NCBI GenBank assembly: GCA_030698765.1
Contig: JAUYMF010000040.1
Coordinates: 1-33,607 of the forward strand
Direction: 5' to 3'
From: Dehalococcoidales bacterium
GTDB lineage: Bacteria > Chloroflexota > Dehalococcoidia > Dehalococcoidales > UBA2162
DNA: 33,607 nucleotides
Shown piece after piece: positions 15,751 through 28,464 of this stretch. Positions within the stretch are counted from its first letter, which is position 1; each line of letters opens with the position of its first letter. The translations under genes and the position numbers were made by a program. Below the pieces are notes generated by a model, which had not been told where the DNA came from, made no database searches, and worked only from the letters and a program-made list of their open reading frames with translations.

Positions 15751-17751
15751 CTAAGAGAGTCCGGGCGAGGCGGTGACCGGATCGCGCGACACGCTTAAGA
15801 TTCTCCTTTGCTCCAGTTCCTGTAACACGTCATCCAGTCCCACCTCCTCCAGCGCTTCCCTGGTAGGTATGCCATCCTGGTTCCACCTCTTCAGTTCATA
15901 CCATTTATCGAGCCATTTATTGAACAGATCGCGGTCCAATTTGGCTTTACCGGTTCTCGGGTCTTTCTGGAAATGCTTTTCAGGCATACTATCATCTTTT
16001 CTCCTGATGCCGGTTCTGACATCATAAGAGCGTACCTGCCTGATTATTCGTCTGGCTACCCTTGTTGCCTTAGCCTCGTCAATATCCATTCCGGTAGCGG
16101 CCGATATGAGACTGGCAATCAAGGGTCGACTGCTTATCGGTGGCGACGGGTGGTGCCCTACCCAGTAGTAGCAGAGTCCGGTAGCATCCGCCAGCGCGAA
16201 TGTCTCTTCGTTATGAGAGATAAATAATAATGTTCCCTCATAATCAGCCTCAATGAGATTGCTCTCCGGCAACAGGTACTTCTTGAATTCTTCCGGGAAA
16301 TGGTAGTACTCTGATTCCAGATAAGCTGCTTTTTCCTCGGGGGTATGGACCTCAGCCCGCTCCCAGAAGGTCTCGGCGTTAGAGCCGATAAGCTTCTCGC
16401 CGCCGCCGCCGTCAGCGATAGCTGTGGTTATACTGCCGGGGCCGGACTCGCCGCCGCCTTCTCTGCGCTGGACCAGGTCCAGTTTCTTCACGTGGCGGGC
16501 AAACTCTTCAGCGCCTCTGCCTATCCGCCGGGCGGCACGGTAAACGCCATCAGCCAGCGCATCACCAATGCCCTCGCGGCGGGCAATCTTGTCAATCAGC
16601 CAGAGAGCTGATTTTTCATCACCGAACTCCAGGTGCATCCCTCCGGTATCTTTCCCGGTCAGTATCCCTTTTTCATAGAGCTTGATTGCCAGCGCGATTT
16701 GCGCCGTAATCGATTTGCTGTCCAGACCATATAATTCGCACTGGTGATAAAACCTTAAAGCGAAGTCAATATCAAGTATTCTGGTAGCGCGCAGACCAGC
16801 CACCCAGGAAGAGCACTTTATAAAGGAATACTCGCCATCAGGCTGGGCATAGGCGCGGAGGCAGCGCTGCCCGCAGTTATAGCAGGCAACCCTTTTATCC
16901 GTTTTTGTGTCCATGAAGTTCTGGGCTACCTCGCCAATATGGTCTATTTGATACTGAAGCTCAGGCGGGTATGCCCCCCCAGTGATGCCGTAGTCTACTC
17001 CCTTGGCGTATCCTTTAACACGGCCGTACCCGAAATTGTCATAAATCTGGTGCCTGACACGCTCGGTGCGGTTGAGGATTGGCTGGCACAGTTCGATGAG
17101 TCTGTCAGGATCGGCGACGTTAACGTCTTTGGTGCCATGAACGGCGATAGCCTTCAACATCTTGTCACCCATGATGGCGCCCGCTCCGCCCCGGCTGGCG
17201 CTGGAACCGTTGCCGTGTTCGATGGTAGACGTGTAGACCTTATTCTCACCGGCGAGGCCGATACACAGGACTTCCACCTCTTCGTTTTTCAATTCTTCAC
17301 GGATGAGTCTTTGGGTTTCTCGGGTGTTTTTTCCCCAGAGATGCCTGGCATCACGCAGTTCCACCCGGTCATCATCTATCCACAGGTACACCGGCGTGGA
17401 TGACTTTCCGGATAGCTTTATCGTATTGTAGCCGGCAAACTTAAGCCTGGCTCCAAAATTGCCACCGATATTGGAATACGAGTGTATTTCAGTCACCGGC
17501 GACTTGAAGGTAACGGTAGTGCGGTTAGCGCTGGGCACAATAGTCCCAACCAGAGCACCCGCGCTGATTACCAGTAAATTTTCAGCGGAAAAGGGTTCAA
17601 CTTCAGGAGGCACTCTCTCCCATAATGTCCTGACATTGGTACCTTTACCTCCGAGGAAAGCTTCATATAGCTTGCGGTCTGCCGCTTCTTTGACGATGGT
17701 GGCGTTAGACAGGTCAACTTCTAAATCAGCTTCAGCCCAACCGTACAACAT
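15751..17751 (-). CDS. Aldehyde:ferredoxin oxidoreductase family protein (tungstopterin)
   Basis: A 666-aa AOR-family enzyme, which oxidises aldehydes to acids (or reduces acids) with ferredoxin, using a tungsten bis-pterin and one [4Fe-4S] cluster. The N-terminal domain has FLGGKGTNVRTLWERV, SANRTTVTFKSP and NIGGNFGARLKFAGY. Three cluster ligands are in CYNCGQRCLRAY (Cys290, 293, 297), and the fourth is likely the Cys of DATGLCYYWVG. EHGNGSSASRGGAGAIMGDK is a conserved pterin-region loop. The length is slightly above the usual 600-630, with a charged C-terminal tail. AGGAGGAG lies before the ATG. The FAD oxidoreductase upstream on the same strand is a plausible electron partner, but a hairpin lies between them. 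Confidence 0.92.
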   Translation of the reverse strand: MLYGWAEADLEVDLSNATIVKEAADRKLYEAFLGGKGTNVRTLWERVPPEVEPFSAENLLVISAGALVGTIVPSANRTTVTFKSPVTEIHSYSNIGGNFGARLKFAGYNTIKLSGKSSTPVYLWIDDDRVELRDARHLWGKNTRETQRLIREELKNEEVEVLCIGLAGENKVYTSTIEHGNGSSASRGGAGAIMGDKMLKAIAVHGTKDVNVADPDRLIELCQPILNRTERVRHQIYDNFGYGRVKGYAKGVDYGITGGAYPPELQYQIDHIGEVAQNFMDTKTDKRVACYNCGQRCLRAYAQPDGEYSFIKCSSWVAGLRATRILDIDFALRFYHQCELYGLDSKSITAQIALAIKLYEKGILTGKDTGGMHLEFGDEKSALWLIDKIARREGIGDALADGVYRAARRIGRGAEEFARHVKKLDLVQRREGGGESGPGSITTAIADGGGGEKLIGSNAETFWERAEVHTPEEKAAYLESEYYHFPEEFKKYLLPESNLIEADYEGTLLFISHNEETFALADATGLCYYWVGHHPSPPISSRPLIASLISAATGMDIDEAKATRVARRIIRQVRSYDVRTGIRRKDDSMPEKHFQKDPRTGKAKLDRDLFNKWLDKWYELKRWNQDGIPTREALEEVGLDDVLQELEQRRILSVSRDPVTASPGLS

Positions 17752-17893
17752 TTCAATCTCCTCCTGGTGGGTTAGCGTAATTTGCTTGTTAAGGGTCCCG
17801 TACTATTATATTAAGTCTGTGATATGGCTCTGTCAAGGAAAGCGCCGTGGTTTCAAGGGTGATTTGTGGCTGGACGGGAACGTCTCTAACGCA

Positions 17894-17925
17894 GTTGGCG
17901 GGCTATTAAAAAATAGCCCGCCAAC
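17894..17925 (-). terminator. 14-bp perfect hairpin after the FAD oxidoreductase gene
   Basis: GTTGGCGGGCTATT and AATAGCCCGCCAAC pair perfectly around a 4-nt loop, 32 bp beyond the FAD oxidoreductase stop codon and before the AOR start. Read on the minus strand, the run of Ts falls in and beside the loop rather than after the stem, so it is a strong hairpin but not a textbook intrinsic terminator. Confidence 0.6.
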
Positions 17926-17957
17926 CTCTATACCTTGATAGTATCCAGTCTGCCTGT

Positions 17958-19235
17958 TTACACCAGCTTTTTGGAGAATATTCCGGTTAGACCCAGCTTC
18001 CCGATATTATCAGTGTACATCTTTTTAGCCTGAGTGGCTTCCAGTTCCTGCTCCTCGGCGGTTAATCTAAGGCCACCCCTGCTCTTGGGATCGTTTTGCT
18101 TTTCCAGGCTGAAGGCCATGGCTCTGCCGATAGCAGTGGTTACGGGTAGTTCAAGGGCTGGCATTCCGGCTGCCTTGCGTACCGCGTTGTGGCCAGCCAG
18201 CGCGCCGGAGATATAAGCTGCCGAGATGCTGCCAAATTTCGCCTTTTCACCGGCAACGAATAAGTTGTCCACGCCCTCGGCCTTTAGAGCCAGGTCCTTG
18301 GGTGAAATCGCCATGTACCTGATAGCATTACCAATCCAGCCGACATGCGGTTCAGCAATCATGGCGTTTTCCATGCCGGCTATCTTCTCCAGTTCTTCCC
18401 GCGGCAGCCAGGGCATTCTCCTGATATTAACGTAGCCGCAATAGTTTATTTCCAGTTCCCTGGCCATCTCCGGCGTTACGCCCATACCTACCATTGTCAT
18501 CCGCATTCTCTGGTATACCGCTTCGACATATTCCGGCGGCGTCTCTAACTGTATCTCACCTTCTGTTTCCAACTTCTTCTGAAGATCAGGGGAGAGCGAC
18601 TCTTTAATCAGGGTAACCGCGGAACTGTATATCCCGGGTGTACCATCCGCCCTCTGCCCGACGAACTCTTTGACGCCAGCCTTAGCGGCAATGCTAACCC
18701 TGCCACCAAACAAATAGCAGTTCATTATACAGGCGGCACAGCCCTGCCCGTATTTTTCACACATCGGTATCGGTCCGGCTCCCCCTGTAGCGTCGACCAC
18801 GGCATCAGCCTCCAGCACCGTGCCGTCCTTAAGCTTTATCGCCTTAATGCTCCGGCCGGACATCTCAACGTCTGAGCCGAGACCTCGTAAGATTATCTTT
18901 ACGCCCAGTCCCCGCAGGACCTTGTCTACCGCCTTTCCAATCTTGCGGGTGTCATACAGGGTAAGCATGCGCGGGTCTTTTAGCTTCAGATTTTCAAATC
19001 GGGAAAAAATTGCCACCGAGTCCAGAGCATCCAGCATATCTCCCGCTCCCATGGCAACAAGTTCCACCTCGCCGGGAACGGCGGAACCCCGCCGGTAAGA
19101 CCCGGCCAGCTGGCCCATACCTGTAAGCGTATCCGTCTTTTCGACCAGTGTTACATCCGCTCCGGCCCGTGCCGCTGCCGCAGCCGCACCGCAACCGGCA
19201 AACCCCGCACCCACCACGACTATTTTTTTGGACAT
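17958..19235 (-). CDS. FAD-dependent oxidoreductase with cysteine cluster
   Basis: A 425-aa flavoprotein starting MSKKIVVVGAGFAGCGAAAA, a Rossmann dinucleotide-binding fold, with the second FAD signature near VDNLFVAGEKAKFG (about 330-345). It resembles the FixC/fumarate-reductase-like or GidA-like FAD proteins. An unusual Cys cluster follows DATGG: MCEKYGQGCAACIMNC has Cys159, 166, 169 and 173, suitable for an Fe-S centre. The start at 19235 is preferred over an in-frame start at 19310 because GAGGAGGG sits 8 nt upstream. Position upstream of the AOR gene suggests passing AOR-derived electrons to another carrier, but this is inference. Confidence 0.85.
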   Translation of the reverse strand: MSKKIVVVGAGFAGCGAAAAAARAGADVTLVEKTDTLTGMGQLAGSYRRGSAVPGEVELVAMGAGDMLDALDSVAIFSRFENLKLKDPRMLTLYDTRKIGKAVDKVLRGLGVKIILRGLGSDVEMSGRSIKAIKLKDGTVLEADAVVDATGGAGPIPMCEKYGQGCAACIMNCYLFGGRVSIAAKAGVKEFVGQRADGTPGIYSSAVTLIKESLSPDLQKKLETEGEIQLETPPEYVEAVYQRMRMTMVGMGVTPEMARELEINYCGYVNIRRMPWLPREELEKIAGMENAMIAEPHVGWIGNAIRYMAISPKDLALKAEGVDNLFVAGEKAKFGSISAAYISGALAGHNAVRKAAGMPALELPVTTAIGRAMAFSLEKQNDPKSRGGLRLTAEEQELEATQAKKMYTDNIGKLGLTGIFSKKLV

Positions 19236-19408
19236 TTTTTCAACCCTCCTCTTCTGGTAGTTATTACCCGGAAAATTCTTTTTACAAAGGAACAGACGAA
19301 CCATTTTCACAAAGAAAGACGGATTTTGTCAAGTTGGTGTACTCGTTCATATGACCCTGCCCATCTGTTTACCGGCGTAATTTTATGCTAGACTACCCAC
19401 CGTAAATC

Positions 19409-19809: not shown

Positions 19810-21147
19810 GTGAAAATACTTCTTATAATGCCTCGCGGAGCGCTCTACCGATACGAAAAGGGTATCTTTAAGAGACCTATCCGCTATGCTCCATTGACTT
19901 TAACCACACTGGCAGCGTTGATCCCGCCGGAGATCGAAGCCGAAGTGGAGATCATCGATGAGGGGGTGGAAACCCTGCCCGGCGAGATCAAAGCTGATCT
20001 GGTTGGGATAACGGCTATTACCGGGACGGCGATGCGTGCCTACACACTGGCCGATCATATCCGGCAAAAAGGCATCCCGGTGGTGCTGGGTGGTGTCCAT
20101 GCCACCCTGATGCCCCAAGAAGCCGCATTCCACGCCGATGCCGTCGTTACCGGTTTTGCGGAAGAAAGCTGGCCGCAGTTGCTCCGTGATTTCATCCGTG
20201 GCAGGATGGGCAAGCTCTATACCCAGTCCCCGGCTCTCTCAATGAGCGATTTGCCATTCCCCCGCAGGGAGCTTCTCAGAGGTAAGAATTATATAACCGT
20301 CAATACCGTGCAGGCTACGCGTGGGTGTATTAATCATTGTGATTTCTGTGTCGTGCCTGTCGCCTGGGGTAGAAGGATGTACCTCCGTCCCGTCAGAGAT
20401 GTCATCTCGGAACTGGAACAGATTGAAAGCCGTAATGTCCTTTTCGTAGACGTGAGCCCTATTGAGGACCGGCAATACGCCAAAGACCTCTACCGCGCCA
20501 TGATACCGCTCAAGAAACGCTGGCTCAGTCCTTCCACCATCCGCATGGCGGATGACCCCGAGCTGCTGGATTTAGCCGCTAAAAGCGGCTGCAAAGGTCT
20601 CTTGATAGGCTTCGAGTCAGTCTCTCAGTCCACTCTAAAAGGTATGGGGAAGGGTTTCAATTACGCCGAAAAATACAAGACCCAGATTAAGAAGCTGCAC
20701 AACCGTGGAATCTCTATCCAGGCATGCTTCGTTTTCGGTTTTGACACCGATGACAAGACGGTTTTTGAAAAGACGGTGGAGATGGTCAATAAACTGAACC
20801 TGGACCTTCCCCGCTTTACGGCTTACACCCCGTTCCCGGGTACGCCCATCCACGAGAAATTAAAGAAGGAAAACCGCATTATCGAGACCAACTGGTCGAT
20901 GTATGATGCTCAGCACGTTGTCTTCCGACCCAAGCTCATGTCCCCCGGGGAGCTACAGGAGGGATTATATTGGACCTGGAAACAATGCTATACCGCCGGC
21001 TCGATATTCAAGCGGCTGGCAGGCTCGCGCTGTATATTACCCGTCTCAATCCCCGCGAATATCGCTTATCGTTTTTACGCGCGAAATCTCTTAAAATATG
21101 ATGAAAGCAAAATGCAGGACAATTCGCTAATCGAGACCATCGCATAG
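19810..21147 (+). CDS. B12-binding-domain radical SAM protein (first of three)
   Basis: A 445-aa protein with an N-terminal cobalamin-binding Rossmann-like domain (MKILLIMPRGALY, VVLGGVHATLMPQEA near residues 91-104) and a radical SAM barrel with the cluster motif RGCINHCDFC (Cys173, Cys177, Cys180). The domain lacks a D-x-H-x-x-G lower axial His motif, as in many class B enzymes. The C-terminal segment RFTAYTPFPGTPIHEKL is typical of the family. Likely chemistry is methylation or another radical change at an unactivated carbon. It starts with GTG after a GGGGAGGGG ribosome-binding region and opens a four-gene plus-strand operon. The substrate is unknown. Confidence 0.88.
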   Translation: MKILLIMPRGALYRYEKGIFKRPIRYAPLTLTTLAALIPPEIEAEVEIIDEGVETLPGEIKADLVGITAITGTAMRAYTLADHIRQKGIPVVLGGVHATLMPQEAAFHADAVVTGFAEESWPQLLRDFIRGRMGKLYTQSPALSMSDLPFPRRELLRGKNYITVNTVQATRGCINHCDFCVVPVAWGRRMYLRPVRDVISELEQIESRNVLFVDVSPIEDRQYAKDLYRAMIPLKKRWLSPSTIRMADDPELLDLAAKSGCKGLLIGFESVSQSTLKGMGKGFNYAEKYKTQIKKLHNRGISIQACFVFGFDTDDKTVFEKTVEMVNKLNLDLPRFTAYTPFPGTPIHEKLKKENRIIETNWSMYDAQHVVFRPKLMSPGELQEGLYWTWKQCYTAGSIFKRLAGSRCILPVSIPANIAYRFYARNLLKYDESKMQDNSLIETIA

Positions 21148-21225
21148 CTTTCCTGATAACAGATTCAACATGCTGATGTCGGTTGTCATTTCCGCCAGGT
21201 ACCCGGCCAGGTAGTGAAGGAGCTT

Positions 21226-23679
21226 ATGCCTCGTGTAACTTTTATCTACCCTTGCGTGGGACGTTTCCCCGGGACGCGCTATGTCCGCTCGTGGCAGATG
21301 CAGCCGCTTGCAATAGGGGTGCTGTCCGCCTTGACCCCCGCCGGCTGGCAAAAGTCATTCTATGATGACCGGCTGGAAGCCATTGATTTCTCTCAGCCCA
21401 CCGATCTGGCCGCGATATCTATTGAGACTTTTACTGCCCGCCGCGGCTACCAGATAGCGGATGAATACCGTAAAAAAGGGATCCCGGTGGTGCTGGGGGG
21501 CTATCATGCAACTCTTTGTCCTGAGGAAGCCAGGGAACACGCCGATTCTGTGTGTATCGGTGAGGCCGAAAAAGTCTGGCAGCATATTCTGAACGATGCC
21601 TCCGGAGGAAAGCTGGCTTCCGTTTACTCTGCGCCACGGAGCGCTAACCTTGCCGGCATCAGGACGGACCGCGGGATATTTGAAGGTAAACACTACTTTA
21701 AGCTCGCTATGGTGGAATCCGGCCGGGGCTGCCGTTTCAATTGCAGTTTTTGCTCAATCAGTGCCTTTTACCAGTCTACCTACCGCCGAAGACCGGTTGA
21801 CGAGATTATCGGTGAAATAAAGCAACTGAAGGAGAAAGTCATTTTTTTCGTGGATGATAATATCGTCGGGGACACAGCAACCGGCCGGGAGCTTTTTAAG
21901 GCACTGATACCGCTGAAAATCAACTGGATAGGCCAGTGTAGCATCAACGCTGCCACCGACACGGCATTACTGGAACTGATGTCACAAAGCGGTTGCCGGG
22001 GTCTCCTGGTCGGACTGGAATCGCTCCACGCAATCAACCTCAATACCGTTGGAAAAGCCATCAACCAGACAATCGATTACGAGCAAGCCCTCGGGGCTTT
22101 TCGGAAAAATGGTATCTCGATCTATGGCACTTTCATGTTCGGCTTTCCGGCCGATTCCACCCGGACCATCCGGGATGCCGTGGATTTTGCCCGGCGCCAG
22201 AAACTATTTTTAGCCGCCTTTGCCCAGATTATCCCCTTCCCTGGAACGCCTCTTTACTCTCAGTTCGAGGCTGAAAATAGACTGATGTATCCTGACTGGT
22301 GGCTGAGTGACCACTACCTCTTCGGGCAAGCCCCGTTCTATCCCGTCGGCATGTCGCCTGCTGAACTGGAGCAGTCATGTTACGCAGCCCGGCGGGACTT
22401 CTATTCATTCTCTTCCATACTGCAGAGAGGCCGGGAATTTTCGGCTAACTGCGCCCGGCCCCGGATGGCCGGGGTCTTCTACGGTCTGAACTATCTGATG
22501 CACCGGGAGGTATCCAGGAAATTCGGTATCCCCATGGGCATGAGGGAAACTCCCGTGAAGAAGCGTTCACCTCATGTTGTCGCCGAAATCGCAGGGCCTG
22601 ATAATGACGCTGAGATCCGCAATTTGCTCTGCCAGATTCCCGTGCCCGGAGCGGTTCAGATTACCTACCTTTACAACCCGTCATTCATGGCCTCCATGAA
22701 GGTTGAAGGGAGACAGTCCGATATCATCACCGGACGCGATACTGATACCGGCAAGTTGATTGGACTGGGCACCCGCTCCATAAAACCCGCTTTCGTAAAC
22801 GGCGAACTCTCTCCATTAGGCTATCTGGGGAGCCTGCGACTTGCCGAGGAATATCGCGGCAGCACTTACCTGGCTCGCGGTTACCGCGAGCTAAAGCGGT
22901 TGCACCAAGCCGGACCAGCCAGGCTGTATATCACTACCATCATAGAAAGCAATAAGAAGGCGCGAGAGATTCTGACTTCGGGGCGGGCGGGGTTGCCCGC
23001 TTATCATGATTTCGGCCGGTTTTGCAGTCTGGCCATTGGATTGAGACGGAGTCCGTCCCGGTTAAGCTTACCGGACAATCTCCTCATACGCCCGGCTGTT
23101 ATGGAAGATATCCCGTCGCTCATTGAGTTCTGGCAGCGTGAAGGTTCTCGCCGGCAGTTTTTCCCCGGTTATTCGGCTGCGGACTTGATTGATCCGGAAG
23201 GCTTGCTGGGTGGACTGGCTCCGGATGATATTCTGCTCGCTTTTAAAGAAGATAAACTGGTCGGAACCACAGGCGCATGGAACCAGGAACCGTTCCGCCA
23301 GAGCCGGGTAACCGGTTACAATCGCTGGCTCGGCATGCTGCGCTCTCCCTATAACCTCACCGCCGGCCGGCTGGGGTATCCGCTCCTGCCCCGTCCCGGT
23401 TCCGACCTGGACTACTTTAACCTGGCCCTGGTCTGTATCAGTAATGACGACCGAAAAGTCTTCGCTGCTCTGCTGTCTCAACTCCTGGCAAAATATCACG
23501 GCAGCTTTGATTTTTTTATGGCCGGACTGCATGAGCATGACCCGCTACTGCCTGTCCTGGCTAAATACCGTCATTTCAATTATTACAGCCGCCTTTACGT
23601 GGTCTGCTGGGAAGACGGAGAGCATGATTTTCATAATCTGGATGGACGCGTACCTTACCTGGAACTGGGGGCCTTATAA
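21226..23679 (+). CDS. B12-type radical SAM protein fused to tandem GNAT-like domains
   Basis: An 817-aa fusion. Residues 1 to about 435 form a cobalamin-binding plus radical SAM module (VVLGGYHATLCPEEA; cluster motif RGCRFNCSFC with Cys169, 173, 176). The rest reads as two acetyltransferase-like (GNAT) domains: about 440-625 with LSPLGYLGSLRLAEEYRGS, and about 630-800 starting LLIRPAVMEDIPSLIEFWQR. The ATG at 21226 is chosen because the protein then begins like its relatives. An in-frame GTG at 21214 is possible, and AAGGAG at 21217-21222 is unusually close to the ATG. The first base of the next gene overlaps this stop codon. Fusion suggests radical modification coupled to acyl transfer on one substrate. 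Confidence 0.82.
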   Translation: MPRVTFIYPCVGRFPGTRYVRSWQMQPLAIGVLSALTPAGWQKSFYDDRLEAIDFSQPTDLAAISIETFTARRGYQIADEYRKKGIPVVLGGYHATLCPEEAREHADSVCIGEAEKVWQHILNDASGGKLASVYSAPRSANLAGIRTDRGIFEGKHYFKLAMVESGRGCRFNCSFCSISAFYQSTYRRRPVDEIIGEIKQLKEKVIFFVDDNIVGDTATGRELFKALIPLKINWIGQCSINAATDTALLELMSQSGCRGLLVGLESLHAINLNTVGKAINQTIDYEQALGAFRKNGISIYGTFMFGFPADSTRTIRDAVDFARRQKLFLAAFAQIIPFPGTPLYSQFEAENRLMYPDWWLSDHYLFGQAPFYPVGMSPAELEQSCYAARRDFYSFSSILQRGREFSANCARPRMAGVFYGLNYLMHREVSRKFGIPMGMRETPVKKRSPHVVAEIAGPDNDAEIRNLLCQIPVPGAVQITYLYNPSFMASMKVEGRQSDIITGRDTDTGKLIGLGTRSIKPAFVNGELSPLGYLGSLRLAEEYRGSTYLARGYRELKRLHQAGPARLYITTIIESNKKAREILTSGRAGLPAYHDFGRFCSLAIGLRRSPSRLSLPDNLLIRPAVMEDIPSLIEFWQREGSRRQFFPGYSAADLIDPEGLLGGLAPDDILLAFKEDKLVGTTGAWNQEPFRQSRVTGYNRWLGMLRSPYNLTAGRLGYPLLPRPGSDLDYFNLALVCISNDDRKVFAALLSQLLAKYHGSFDFFMAGLHEHDPLLPVLAKYRHFNYYSRLYVVCWEDGEHDFHNLDGRVPYLELGAL

Positions 23680-24383
23680 TGGCGCTCCAGGCACACGTCA
23701 CCCCGGTCAATCAAATCAGCGAAGTCCAGATCTTGACCATGCTCAGGATAATGCAGACCTATTATCTGAATGTCGATGCGGTACAGTTCCGTACTGACCT
23801 GAAAGAAAAAGACCTGGTCATCCTTCTCCACGAAGAAGGAGCCATCCGCGGCTTTTCCACGTGGTTGTTGACCGAGCATGAAATGCCGGAGCAAAAGGTC
23901 AATATCATCTTCTCCGGAGATACGATTATTGAAAAGGCACACTGGCATTCCCTGGCCCTTCCCATCGCCTGGGGCCGCCTTATGTTATCAGCACTGGCCA
24001 GATATCCTGACCGGGAGCTTTACTGGGTGCTGACCAGCAAAGGCCACAAGACCTACCGTTTCCTTCCGGTGTTCTTCCGTGAGTTCTATCCTGCGTTCAT
24101 GAAGAATACCCCGGTTTTTGAAGAAGCTCTACTCCATAGTTTTGCCAGCCACAGGTTTGGGAACCGGTTTAATCCGGCTACCGGAACCCTGACCGCCTCA
24201 GACAAAGCCCAGAAATTGATTCCGGGTGTGGCTGATATTACGGAAGCCCGCCGCAAAGACAAACATGTCGCCTTCTTCGAGAGAATGAACCCCGGTTGTA
24301 CCCAGGGTGACGAACTGGTTTGCCTGGCCCGCTGCCACCCGGATAATATCAGTCCCTTTATCAAGAGGTATCTAAAAACATGA
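23679..24383 (+). CDS. Uncharacterised 234-aa protein, possibly GNAT-fold
   Basis: I do not recognise a named family. The protein is soluble, with no signal peptide or clear membrane segment. An alternating strand/helix pattern (LVILLHEEGAIRGFSTWLL, then LPIAWGRLMLSALARYPDR and LYWVLTSKGHKTYRFLP) is compatible with an N-acyltransferase (GNAT) fold, and the last third is charged. Its ATG shares one base with the upstream stop codon, and its end overlaps the GH3 start by 4 bp (ATGA), so it is surely part of the operon and probably made in a fixed ratio with the fusion protein and the GH3 enzyme. A role in acyl transfer or substrate handover is inference only. Confidence 0.75.
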   Translation: MALQAHVTPVNQISEVQILTMLRIMQTYYLNVDAVQFRTDLKEKDLVILLHEEGAIRGFSTWLLTEHEMPEQKVNIIFSGDTIIEKAHWHSLALPIAWGRLMLSALARYPDRELYWVLTSKGHKTYRFLPVFFREFYPAFMKNTPVFEEALLHSFASHRFGNRFNPATGTLTASDKAQKLIPGVADITEARRKDKHVAFFERMNPGCTQGDELVCLARCHPDNISPFIKRYLKT

Positions 24384-26008
24384 GAGCCGGACGGCTGTTA
24401 CCATTAGCAGTTAACTGGCTGTGGCTGCAAAACAGCTACGCCGGTAACCGGCGTTTCTCCCGCGCCCTGGAAAATCCCGGACCAACCCAGGAGCTGTATT
24501 TAAAAAATCTCCTCAGACGAAACGAGAGCACTCAATATGGCCGGGCAAATCATTTCTCGCAAATCTCCTCAATCCGCGACTTTCAGGAGAACATTCCCCT
24601 GACCCGATACGAAGATTACCTGCCTTACATCGAAGAAATTTCGCGGGGCAAGTCCAGCGTCCTGACTCATGATCCGGTGGCACTGTTTCAACCCACCAGC
24701 GGGACGTCTTCAGCCTCTAAACTGATCCCGTACAACCAACCGCTCAAGGCCGAGTATCAGATGGCCATCTCCCCCTGGGTTTATAATCTTTTTCGCCGGG
24801 TACCGGGATTGATGCGCGGCCGGGCATACTGGTCTATCTCTCCACCCGTTGAACGTAATAAATTCCACGGGTGCATCCCTGTTGGATTTGACGATGATTC
24901 CGAATATCTTGGCGGCATCGGGAAACGGTTGTATAATCTGGTTTCGGTCGGGCGACAAAAATTCACTCCGGATATTTCCCTGGATGATTTCAGGGACAGG
25001 ACGCTCACCAGTCTTCTCGCCGCCCGTAATCTTGCCCTGATATCCGTCTGGAGCCCCACCCTTCTCCTGACCCTCATCAAACACTTCCTGGAAAATCAGG
25101 GCAGGTTGATTGAGGTTCTGGCATCGAGTGGTTCGCCGGACGCCCGCGCCCGCGCCGGAAATATCCGGTGGACTATCCAAAAGCACGGCCTTAATTTTAA
25201 AGCTATCTGGCCAGACCTGAAACTGATTAGCTGCTGGACCCACGGAGCCAGCGAGCCGTTCATCCCCGAGATTCGCCGGTATTTCCCCGGCACCGAGATA
25301 CAGGGCAAAGGACTGGTAGCCACCGAAGCGTTTGTATCGCTGCCCCTGCTCCCGGACAACGATCCGGTGCTTGCCGTTAACTCCCACTTCTTTGAATTCC
25401 GCGATATCGAAACCGGTAAAATCCGGCTGGCACACGAGCTTGACCGGGGAGGCGTCTACTCGGTCATTGTGACCACCGGGGGAGGTCTCTACCGTTATGA
25501 GATGGATGATCTGGTAAGGGTAACCGGGTTCATCGCCGCCACTCCCGCGCTGCGCTTTATCTCTAAGAACGCCGTCTCCGATATATTTGGCGAAAAGCTC
25601 AACGCGGAACACGTTCAGCGCAGCCTCGCCGTTACCTTCGCCGAGTACTCGCTCAATCCGACATTTTTCTTTGTGGCGCCGACTGAATTGCCCGGAGGGA
25701 GAATATCTTATACTCTTTTCTTCGAATCTGAAAATGTGTCGGACGAACAGGGGAGAATGTTACGGGAAAAGCTGGAAGGCTGTTTCCTTGAAAACTTCCA
25801 TTACGCTTACTGCCGTAAACTGGGACAGCTTGGCCACCTGGAGGCGTTTTTAATCGACTGTTCGTCGGTCTCGCCGGAAGTGGCGTATCTGGGGGAGATG
25901 CACCGTAGGGGATTGAAACTGGGCGACATCAAACCATCCGTTCTAGACCGGGAGACAGGATGGGAAAAGCGCTTTCAAGGCCGGTTCATGGCTACCGACT
26001 ACTCATAA
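24380..26008 (+). CDS. GH3-family acyl-acid-amido synthetase
   Basis: A 542-aa adenylate-forming enzyme of the GH3 family, best known from plants, where members conjugate jasmonate, auxin or benzoates to amino acids. The ATP-binding motif 1 is FQPTSGTSSASK (about residues 103-114). Motif 2 corresponds to GLVATEAFVSLP and motif 3 to GLYRYEMDDLVRVTGF. The C-terminal swivelling domain is present, and the length is normal. The reaction would be carboxylate plus ATP to acyl-AMP, then transfer to an amine. The start overlaps the preceding gene by 4 bp. It is last in the plus-strand operon and overlaps the convergent radical SAM gene by 6 bp. Confidence 0.9.
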   Translation: MRAGRLLPLAVNWLWLQNSYAGNRRFSRALENPGPTQELYLKNLLRRNESTQYGRANHFSQISSIRDFQENIPLTRYEDYLPYIEEISRGKSSVLTHDPVALFQPTSGTSSASKLIPYNQPLKAEYQMAISPWVYNLFRRVPGLMRGRAYWSISPPVERNKFHGCIPVGFDDDSEYLGGIGKRLYNLVSVGRQKFTPDISLDDFRDRTLTSLLAARNLALISVWSPTLLLTLIKHFLENQGRLIEVLASSGSPDARARAGNIRWTIQKHGLNFKAIWPDLKLISCWTHGASEPFIPEIRRYFPGTEIQGKGLVATEAFVSLPLLPDNDPVLAVNSHFFEFRDIETGKIRLAHELDRGGVYSVIVTTGGGLYRYEMDDLVRVTGFIAATPALRFISKNAVSDIFGEKLNAEHVQRSLAVTFAEYSLNPTFFFVAPTELPGGRISYTLFFESENVSDEQGRMLREKLEGCFLENFHYAYCRKLGQLGHLEAFLIDCSSVSPEVAYLGEMHRRGLKLGDIKPSVLDRETGWEKRFQGRFMATDYS

Positions 26009-27346
26009 GCGGTCTCCGTCAAATAAAGGCGTCAGGTCACTCCCATCGCCAAGGGGCTGGTACCGCTTCCGACTGATTTCCTTCCTCGTGAGGAGATTTA
26101 CCTTAAGATAGACCCCGGCTTTTGTCGGGGAGCTAAAATTAGCATGCAGGTCAAGAGCGCGGCGGGCGATGGAACCGTACTTGTTAAACTCGGAGCGCAC
26201 CCAGTAACAGCGGTCTTCCAGTTGCTCCGGGGTCATCTTCGCGGGGCGGAATGGGGCTTGACCGAACCGGAAATCGGGGTGCAGCCACCACGGGTCGTGA
26301 ATTAGCCTCCCCTCCCGGCGCAATCGCTCATAGAGCGGGGTAGCCGGAAATGGTACGAGCGTATTCAGATTCGCCGTATAGAGTTTCGCTTTAATAGCAA
26401 AATCAAGGCTGATTTTAAACGAATCGAGTGTATCCTGGTCATAGCCGAAAATAAAAGCTCCGCACACCATAATGCCATGCTTCCGGAAAATCCTCACCGC
26501 CTCAAGATAGCTGCCGTAATTAAGATTCAGGCGCTTGCCCATTTGTTTCAAATTACCTGTTATCAGAGACTCAAAACCGATAGTCACCGCGATACACCCG
26601 GACTGTGCCATCAGGCGGATGAGGTCCCGGTTAGCTGAAATGTCCAGGCTTGCCTGACAACCCCATTTGATACCCAGGGGCGTAAGCGCCCGCAGCAGTT
26701 CATTGGTTGCGCTGTTATCGACGAACAGGTTATCATCAGTAAAAATAACCGGCTTCCTGCCGGTTTTGCGGATCTCTTCAACAACCGCATCGACCGGGCG
26801 TTGCCTTATATTACTCCCATAAAGGGCATGGACAGAACAGTATTCGCACGAGAAACGGCAGCCGCGGCCGAACTGGACCAAAGTAACCGGCAGATACCGC
26901 TTGCCCTTAAATATGCTCCGGTCGAACTGAAGCCGGTCCAGGGAAGGATACCGTTTTTCGTAAACCGGTTTGAGCTTCTTTCCCCTCGCATCGCGGACCA
27001 CTTCGTGCCAAACGCCTTCCGCATCGCCAATAACCACAGAATCTACAAAACGGAGGGCCTCCCGTGGACATAGGGTGGGATGAATACCTCCGGCAATGAC
27101 CGGGACTCCGCGCAGGTGATATTGAGCGGCAATCTGGTAAGCCGATTTCGCGGTAAACGTATCGATGGTCAGGACAGCCAGATCAGTCGGCTCATCAAAC
27201 GGGATTACCTCAATACGCTGGTCATAAAGCACGCGGTCAATATCCGGCGGGGTTAGCCCGGATAGTATGGCAAACACCAGCGGCTCAATCGAATCTCCGG
27301 CGACACCGGCCGGAATCAGGCTGGGGCGTATATAGGTAAATTTCAT
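26003..27346 (-). CDS. B12-binding-domain radical SAM protein (third)
   Basis: A 447-aa protein with an N-terminal cobalamin-binding domain (MKFTYIRPSLIP; VIAGGIHPTLCPREA) and a radical SAM barrel with RGCRFSCEYC (Cys163, 167, 170). The C-terminal portion, including WWLHPDFRFGQAPFRPAKM and KAGVYLKVNLLTRKEISRK, closely parallels the same region of the fusion protein at 21226-23679, so the two are paralogues. It lacks the GNAT extension. It starts 11 bp after the isoprenylcysteine-methyltransferase-like gene and probably depends on coupled translation, since the ribosome-binding site is weak. The substrate is unknown; methylation or another radical step on the same product is suggested by context. 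Confidence 0.88.
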   Translation of the reverse strand: MKFTYIRPSLIPAGVAGDSIEPLVFAILSGLTPPDIDRVLYDQRIEVIPFDEPTDLAVLTIDTFTAKSAYQIAAQYHLRGVPVIAGGIHPTLCPREALRFVDSVVIGDAEGVWHEVVRDARGKKLKPVYEKRYPSLDRLQFDRSIFKGKRYLPVTLVQFGRGCRFSCEYCSVHALYGSNIRQRPVDAVVEEIRKTGRKPVIFTDDNLFVDNSATNELLRALTPLGIKWGCQASLDISANRDLIRLMAQSGCIAVTIGFESLITGNLKQMGKRLNLNYGSYLEAVRIFRKHGIMVCGAFIFGYDQDTLDSFKISLDFAIKAKLYTANLNTLVPFPATPLYERLRREGRLIHDPWWLHPDFRFGQAPFRPAKMTPEQLEDRCYWVRSEFNKYGSIARRALDLHANFSSPTKAGVYLKVNLLTRKEISRKRYQPLGDGSDLTPLFDGDRL

Positions 27347-27357
27347 CGGCCTAATAT

Positions 27358-27921
27358 TTAATAAATAAACGGAATGAGTTTTTTGGTCTTTTCCATAAAT
27401 CTCAGGTATTCTGCCTGGAAGCAGGTAATCATCAATTGTTCCTCCAGCTTAATCCGGCGGTGATAACCCAGGAACGAAAGAGCAAGAATAACCGCCAGAC
27501 CTGCCCAGATCCCGAGGCCTAAACCAAAGCCTGTGAAGGCGAGCAGAGCTCCCGTATATGCAGGGTGTCGAATAAAGCGATACGGCCCCCGGTCAACGAC
27601 CTTTTGACCGTCCTGGATTGCCAGCACGGTCCGGAAATATTTACCGAGAGACCAGAATGCCCACCAACGGAGGACGGCACCGGCGAGCACAACGGAGGTA
27701 CCGATTAAATATCTATGATCCTGACCTATCGGAATCCTGGGCAGGTCAGTTTGTTGAATAATTACACATATAACCAGTGCCGCAATCAGAAGCGAAAACA
27801 AATGGAGACCGCTACTTTTGTCTTCAGTCGCATCGACTCTGGCCCTGTCGCGGAAGTTAAGCCATAATTCAAAAGACAGCCAGACAAAACCGCTGGCTAT
27901 AAAAGCGAAAGCAACACTCAT
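27358..27921 (-). CDS. Isoprenylcysteine carboxyl methyltransferase-like membrane protein
   Basis: A 187-aa integral membrane protein with four to five hydrophobic segments. The SAM-binding C-terminal signature GPYRFIRHPAYTGALLAFTG (about 112-131) and the closing pattern EEQLM followed by EYLRFMEKTKKLIPF match the ICMT/PEMT family. Bacterial members methylate carboxylates, thiols, amines or lipids rather than prenylated proteins. The gene is directly upstream of the third radical SAM gene and is likely co-transcribed, so a final O-, S- or N-methylation of the locus product, or of a membrane precursor, is plausible. Confidence 0.85.
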   Translation of the reverse strand: MSVAFAFIASGFVWLSFELWLNFRDRARVDATEDKSSGLHLFSLLIAALVICVIIQQTDLPRIPIGQDHRYLIGTSVVLAGAVLRWWAFWSLGKYFRTVLAIQDGQKVVDRGPYRFIRHPAYTGALLAFTGFGLGLGIWAGLAVILALSFLGYHRRIKLEEQLMITCFQAEYLRFMEKTKKLIPFIY

Positions 27922-27996: not shown

Positions 27997-28464
27997 TTAT
28001 AGCAGACCGGAGCGGCACGCCGGAACCATCAACGCTACACAGGTGCGGACTTGCCAATGCTCGCCATCCAGATGCCAGCTATACGGTTCAACGTGTATCA
28101 CTTTATCCTCGTTAATCAGATTTTGCAGGACCCGTCCATGGCATTGAAGAAAACAACCATCGACCATGATCACTTTATCGCTCCCGGTTACCCAGCTTAA
28201 CATGGAGGAATGAGGAACAAAGAATGTTTCCGCGTGGCATGCCCGGGCAAAGGAAGGCGTTTCCTGGGCTATAATGTTCGCTGCGAGCCTGGCAATTTCT
28301 CCCCGGATGCAGGCTCCCTCGCAGGATAAGACCGGAATCTTTTTATCGGCAATGTTCTGTTTCGCATAGGCTTCACCAACCGGACAAACACCTTTTACGC
28401 TTGATACGTCAATTGAAAAATCGGCTGAGAGAACCGAGATGTCGTCCTGTGTGCAGGATTTCAT
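27997..28464 (-). CDS. DGC-domain putative zinc-binding protein
   Basis: A 155-aa cysteine-rich protein. VLSCEGACIRGEIARLAANI and MVDGCFLQCHGRVLQ match the DGC domain family, named for its conserved Asp-Gly-Cys, which is seen here. Further Cys/His residues (VCPVGEA, RACHAETF) could complete a metal site. The function of the family is not established. No good ribosome-binding site precedes the ATG at 28464, and the first ~20 codons overlap, on the opposite strand, sequence that reads as part of a sigma factor, so the true N-terminus may be altered by a rearrangement. About 75 bp separate its end from the methyltransferase gene. Confidence 0.75.
   Translation of the reverse strand: MKSCTQDDISVLSADFSIDVSSVKGVCPVGEAYAKQNIADKKIPVLSCEGACIRGEIARLAANIIAQETPSFARACHAETFFVPHSSMLSWVTGSDKVIMVDGCFLQCHGRVLQNLINEDKVIHVEPYSWHLDGEHWQVRTCVALMVPACRSGLL

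Follow-up and report, generated by a model that had tools for sequence, protein, structure and literature searches.

A 33,607-nucleotide stretch of DNA from a Dehalococcoidales bacterium (assembly GCA_030698765.1, contig JAUYMF010000040.1; hereafter the window) carries what we judge, at a probability of about 0.7, to be a biosynthetic operon that moves horizontally and makes a small molecule containing an amide and probably resembling a lipid. The operon combines B12-type radical SAM proteins (rSAMs), a tandem GNAT protein, a single GNAT protein and a GH3-family acyl amido synthetase-like protein, and these five core genes almost certainly form one conserved biosynthetic unit. The enzyme families are known ones, joined here in a widespread and conserved operon that is apparently undescribed: no account of the cluster was found in the open-licence literature, in which the only relevant match was a paper on the ornithine-lipid enzyme OlsH (PMC12493201). 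The genes of the locus are laid out as follows.

19810-21147, plus strand: rSAM1, a B12-binding/radical SAM protein of family F3, 445 aa (Pfam; Cx3Cx2C motif; F3 clade)
21214-23679, plus strand: rSAM2-tandem GNAT fusion, 821 aa, with rSAM2 at about residues 1-442 (F5) and the tandem GNAT at about 445-821 (F2)
23679-24383, plus strand: orf4, a single GNAT-fold protein of family F1, 234 aa (AlphaFold model; GNAT matches in the PDB)
24380-26008, plus strand: GH3-family acyl amido synthetase-like protein of family F0, 542 aa (Pfam GH3; plant GH3 structures; motifs)
26003-27346, minus strand: rSAM3, a B12-binding/radical SAM protein of family F9, 447 aa (Pfam; groups with the F9 cluster genes)
27358-27921, minus strand: ICMT/PEMT-like membrane methyltransferase (Pfam), a local neighbour outside the conserved set

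An earlier note on this DNA had described these six open reading frames, their overlaps and the convergent minus-strand pair, and all six were confirmed as described. In the open reading frame list the fusion gene overlaps orf4 by 1 bp, orf4 overlaps the GH3 gene by 4 bp, and the GH3 gene and rSAM3 converge with an overlap of 6 bp; gaps of 66 bp and 11 bp separate rSAM1 from the fusion gene and rSAM3 from the ICMT-like gene, respectively. On the minus strand at 15751-19310, an aldehyde ferredoxin oxidoreductase gene adjoins a GidA/FAD-dependent oxidoreductase-like gene, and a homologue of the latter was not found in the other loci listed. A DGC-domain protein outside the conserved set is encoded at 27997-28464, 75 bp past the ICMT-like gene and on the same strand. 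Neither a cobalamin riboswitch nor any other Rfam RNA was found near the cluster.

Conservation and spread of the gene neighbourhood

A two-sequence GH3 alignment was used to scan 84,980 species genomes; of the 168 relatives that it recovered, the 80 best were retained. The loci of these best 80 of 168 come from about 12 phyla (Chloroflexota, Bacillota, Planctomycetota, Verrucomicrobiota, Acidobacteriota, Thermodesulfobacteriota, Pseudomonadota and Spirochaetota, together with Bacteroidota, Elusimicrobiota, Omnitrophota and Patescibacteria-type bins), with the qualification that some of the loci sit in metagenome bins, whose assignment could be wrong. By profile counts over the same 80 loci, orf4 is present in 75 and the tandem GNAT in 68, 73 have at least one B12-type rSAM gene and 67 at least two, and the whole set of orf4, tandem GNAT, two or more rSAMs and GH3 is found in 59; several of the loci with an incomplete set are short contigs. 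Where orf4 and GH3 both occur, they lie on the same strand and no more than 400 bp apart in 71 of 76 loci, the window included. The usual order among these neighbourhoods is rSAM1-rSAM2-tandem GNAT-GNAT-GH3, with rSAM3 and rSAM4 close by in many Chloroflexota loci. Clusters of Clostridia, which hold up to six B12-rSAM genes, follow an order of their own: rSAM families 8-7-4, the GNAT-GH3 pair, rSAM families 3-6 and then the tandem GNAT.

This degree of neighbourhood conservation is far beyond chance. The earlier note had conjectured that the six genes constitute a complete pathway, an idea to be abandoned if homologues proved to be scattered, and had suggested a search for conserved neighbourhoods of the GH3 and fusion proteins; synteny is in fact conserved among the best 80 of 168 loci, with the order conserved in most of them. 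Co-occurrence nevertheless holds for the five-gene type set and stops short of the ICMT-like gene, which has no homologue in any other neighbourhood at an E-value of 0.1, so that neither a six-gene pathway nor carboxyl methylation is supported. The ICMT-like protein itself scores alike with the PEMT and ICMT Pfam models and reaches 75.2 bits against the isoprenylcysteine O-methyltransferase model NF040696, below the cut-off of 160.

In a genome of the same class (G185), the cluster is spread over two contigs, one of which recurred in the GH3 scan (L077). One contig has rSAM1; the other has rSAM2 and the tandem GNAT as separate genes, followed by the 234-aa gene, a small ORF that looks membrane-bound, and GH3. 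The cluster proteins are 34-48% identical to those of the window. With the orf4 profile as an independent anchor, 5 of 400 Chloroflexota genomes were matched, all five beside other cluster genes, and in the order of Ruminococcaceae bacterium P7 the only match among 295 genomes was P7 itself. The cluster is widespread yet sporadic, and rare in Chloroflexota. No close GH3 was found in any of 100 relatives, and in a quick tree calculated without bootstrap the window GH3 groups with proteins of Desulfobulbaceae, Verrucomicrobia, Planctomycetota and Spirochaetia (SH-aLRT 99) and not with those of other Chloroflexota. Since the cluster is rare in Chloroflexota and its GH3 groups with other phyla, it is probably mobile horizontally, and the window copy was likely acquired in this way. 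GH3 relatives within the same order proved uninformative as a test of synteny, belonging as they do to a different GH3 clade.

Several loci adjoining this picture deserve separate mention. At 9309-11554 of contig C109 (L159) in the source genome, a PEMT/ICMT-like membrane methyltransferase gene is followed directly by a second, unrelated GH3 gene; this pair recurs in at least 10 genomes of the order (GH3 60-79% and methyltransferase 43-71% identical) and so is a separate conserved two-gene module. In genome G686 (L148, contig C81, 847-1461), the central part of an rSAM beside orf4 and GH3 seems to be missing, as alignment is confined to its N-terminal and C-terminal parts, and the orf4 frame there contains one TGA; cluster decay is possible. 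Distant orf4 homologues with 23-25% identity to the window protein occur in Azospirillum (L160, 7959-8705; L161, 7605-8753) without GH3 or GNAT partners, next to a gene that resembles a thioester reductase at its start.

Enzyme families of the cluster

The window GH3 belongs to the GH3 superfamily by its match to Pfam PF03321 (E 4e-42, 144.9 bits, cut-off 23.6) and resembles plant GH3 amido synthetases of known structure (E 1e-22). It shares with the plant enzymes JAR1, GH3.12 and GH3-1 the fold family as well as motif I (PTSGTSSASK in the window, conserved in the bacterial family as PTSGTS...K) and motif III (GLYRYEMDD in the window, conserved as GLYRY), but overall similarity is low, the window gene lies in an operon, and motif II reads ATE instead of SSE, with the T-E pair conserved in the family (motifs as given in PMC12493201). 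The earlier remark that GH3 enzymes are little studied in bacteria needs correction, as OlsH has now been characterised as an N-acyl-ornithine synthetase, joining a fatty acid and ornithine as an amide, and its relatives are proposed to make other amino lipids (PMC12493201). The OlsH/OlsI ornithine-lipid pathway of Singulisphaera acidiphila (PMC12493201) likewise has a bacterial GH3 in an operon, and ATP-dependent amide formation would be expected in both; the window protein, however, is distant from OlsH (40.4 bits with model NF052613, cut-off 620), and its cluster has several B12-rSAMs and GNATs and, by ORF list and Pfam, neither an OlsI-like alpha/beta-hydrolase O-acyltransferase nor an OlsG-like gene.

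The earlier note had also assigned GNAT domains, which Pfam did not detect in either orf4 or the last 384 residues of the 821-aa fusion; relatives and structure models nonetheless bear the assignment out. For orf4, the AlphaFold model (pLDDT 96.7) adopts a GNAT fold whose best PDB matches are GNATs (E about 2e-5), and 6 of 62 relatives match Acetyltransf_9. The C-terminal part of the fusion is modelled with similar confidence (pLDDT 95.6) as a tandem GNAT fold, and 27 of 57 relatives match Acetyltransf_1. On this model the closest PDB folds, which the protein appears to share, are those of MAB_4324 and N-myristoyltransferases (Foldseek E about 1e-13, query TM 0.56-0.60), though the likeness is structural only, sequence identity being 13-15%, and in the window the domain is fused to an rSAM. 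The fusion was found in the window only, and the other loci have separate genes. An apparent second fusion (L089) turned out to be two genes in one frame with a single in-frame stop between them, so that loss of the stop would suffice for fusion.

All three window rSAMs match the Pfam Radical_SAM and B12-binding models, as the earlier note had recognised, with the B12-binding hit above the cut-off for rSAM1 and just below it for rSAM2 and rSAM3. Each has the Cx3Cx2C core and N-terminal B12-binding domain of the B12-binding radical SAM superfamily, and the core motif is kept in 215 of 215 rSAM family members counted. Family F3, that of rSAM1, has it in 61 of 61 members and forms one clade (SH-aLRT 98). 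The seven rSAM families are separate clades in the tree, with the fewest label changes possible, and are therefore distinct orthologues rather than recent copies, presumably with distinct jobs. Even rSAM3, whose orientation is reversed relative to most other loci, groups with a cluster family (F9) that is present in 12 loci. The class also has rSAM2-like genes that stand alone, and these belong to none of the cluster families. An rSAM on another contig of the source genome (L158, contig C89, 9867-11135), considered as a missing part of the cluster, is also a standalone gene of another clade; at up to 71% identity to genes elsewhere in the class, it is conserved there but not tied to the GH3 cluster.

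All window rSAMs score below the curated NCBIfam cut-offs, and the models nearest to them are TIGR04072, PhpK, HpnJ and BchE. TIGR04072, the ladderane family, is among the best models for rSAM1, and both cluster types have several B12-rSAM paralogues; the scores, however, are 69.9-85.7 bits (85.7 for rSAM1) against a cut-off of 360, and the conserved partners here are GH3, GNAT and tandem GNAT. BchE, HpnJ and PhpK have the same B12-binding and radical SAM architecture and give similar scores, but the window proteins lie far below the family cut-offs and form distinct clades with their own operon position. As the rSAMs lie at about equal distances from the P-methylase PhpK and from BchE and HpnJ, methylation, which the earlier note had written into the product, stands as only one option among several.

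Variant clusters and the likely product

A completely sequenced IncF plasmid of Citrobacter portucalensis bears a version of the cluster comprising the 234-aa gene, GH3, two rSAMs, GNAT, two rSAMs, PAP2, a SnoaL-like gene and one further rSAM; it was found in no other plasmid record and in none of 5,426 E. coli genomes. Desulfuromonas sp. CSMB_57 has a further copy, and Clostridia living in animal guts account for many of the carriers. In bins of Leptospiraceae, Acidobacteria, Planctomycetes and Verrucomicrobia, the rSAMs have neighbouring genes of the desaturase, Rieske, PAP2 or SnoaL-like type, and the SnoaL-like genes of the variant clusters are membrane-anchored. Burkholderia arboris (L142) and a gammaproteobacterium (L120) have GH3, GNAT, tandem GNAT, a fatty acid desaturase and a Rieske gene without rSAMs, L120 with an additional MMPL exporter. 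In an Acinetobacter baumannii record (L143, NZ_CP104448.1, 4701-12065; labelled plasmid, yet 4.09 Mb), homologues of orf4, GH3 and the tandem GNAT, again without rSAMs, are co-directional with HlyD, MFS and outer-membrane efflux genes, an arrangement that looks like synthesis and export of a compound. The Acinetobacter and Burkholderia versions imply that the rSAMs are tailoring enzymes and not essential to the core. Collectively, the variant neighbours hint at an acyl or membrane-linked product that is exported in some bacteria, although lipid-type neighbours are absent from most loci, the window included.

In the pathway that we propose, GH3 would adenylate a carboxylate and join it to an amine, a fatty acyl chain being the likeliest carboxylate. 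Since the conserved set includes no gene for a carrier protein, PKS, FAS or other scaffold builder, the precursor would probably be drawn from primary metabolism. The tandem GNAT, with its N-myristoyltransferase-like fold, and the single GNAT would transfer further acyl groups, so that GH3 and the GNATs together form amides or esters. Two to six non-redundant B12-rSAMs may act on unactivated carbons of the substrate, which is probably acyl, either methylating them or carrying out an oxidation or cyclisation that needs no O2. It is likely that an amide made by GH3 is present in the product; whether the product is lipid-like we regard as evenly balanced. The note's view of B12-rSAMs, GNATs and GH3 as a single biosynthetic set without a characterised match agrees with the conserved set and with our failure to find such a match; that the set amounts to a complete pathway is a conjecture of the note. 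A defence-system reading was rejected, PADLOC returning only very weak radical SAM matches.

For the rSAMs, a different chemistry has some appeal but is on balance unlikely, namely that they resemble BchE in working as oxidases or cyclases without O2 and are not methylases, their place being taken in aerobes by the desaturase and Rieske proteins. The nearest models include HpnJ, BchE and TIGR04072, and the rSAM-free versions of Burkholderia arboris and L120 have just those two proteins beside the GH3/GNAT core. On the other side, the PhpK-type P-methylase matches equally closely, and several loci carry both rSAMs and O2-dependent enzymes. Low rSAM number was not significantly associated with O2-dependent enzymes (7 of 18 against 4 of 23, p=0.16), and a general replacement of one by the other was rejected on this ground.

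We also consider it rather unlikely that the cluster is an OlsH-like aminolipid pathway, in which the N-acyl amino acid made by GH3 becomes a structural lipid of the membrane, with further acylation by the GNATs and with its chains methylated or cross-linked by the rSAMs. OlsH is the sole characterised bacterial GH3 found, with relatives proposed to make other amino lipids (PMC12493201), and PAP2 and fatty acid desaturase genes neighbour the variants, yet a score of 40 bits against 620 and a set devoid of OlsI-like and OlsG-like genes speak against it. The exporter genes flanking the core in Acinetobacter and L120 better fit a released compound, and the sporadic distribution fits an accessory metabolite.

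It is improbable that GH3 does no more than activate a carboxylate, which might be passed on to a protein or peptide, in a cluster that tailors peptides or proteins and not lipids: GNATs and B12-rSAMs are generally known to act often on peptides or amino acids, but no conserved precursor-peptide gene appeared among the neighbourhood families (ORFs of at least 70 aa), and the known activity of the GH3 family is on free small acids. The notion that the genes serve separate pathways and stand together by chance has next to no chance of being right for the five core genes, given their conserved order in most of the 80 loci and about 12 phyla, even if the ICMT-like gene and the flanking aldehyde ferredoxin oxidoreductase, FAD-protein and DGC genes do resemble unrelated neighbours.

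Under the preferred reading, a mobile operon for an amide-containing small molecule, the loci may represent an unrecognised class of natural-product or lipid cluster, distributed over about 12 phyla by horizontal transfer and yielding a new class of compounds, in which GH3, GNAT and tandem GNAT would form the amide and two to six dedicated B12-rSAMs, or a desaturase and Rieske protein instead in some aerobes, would modify its carbon skeleton; to this broader proposal we give slightly less than even odds. Conservation over many phyla with up to six distinct B12-rSAMs, in a set for which no product was found described, points to a real and widespread metabolite. Its elucidation would extend bacterial GH3 chemistry past ornithine lipids and would offer B12-rSAMs with a traceable substrate, and the copies on the Citrobacter plasmid and in Desulfuromonas sp. 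CSMB_57 make the cluster testable.
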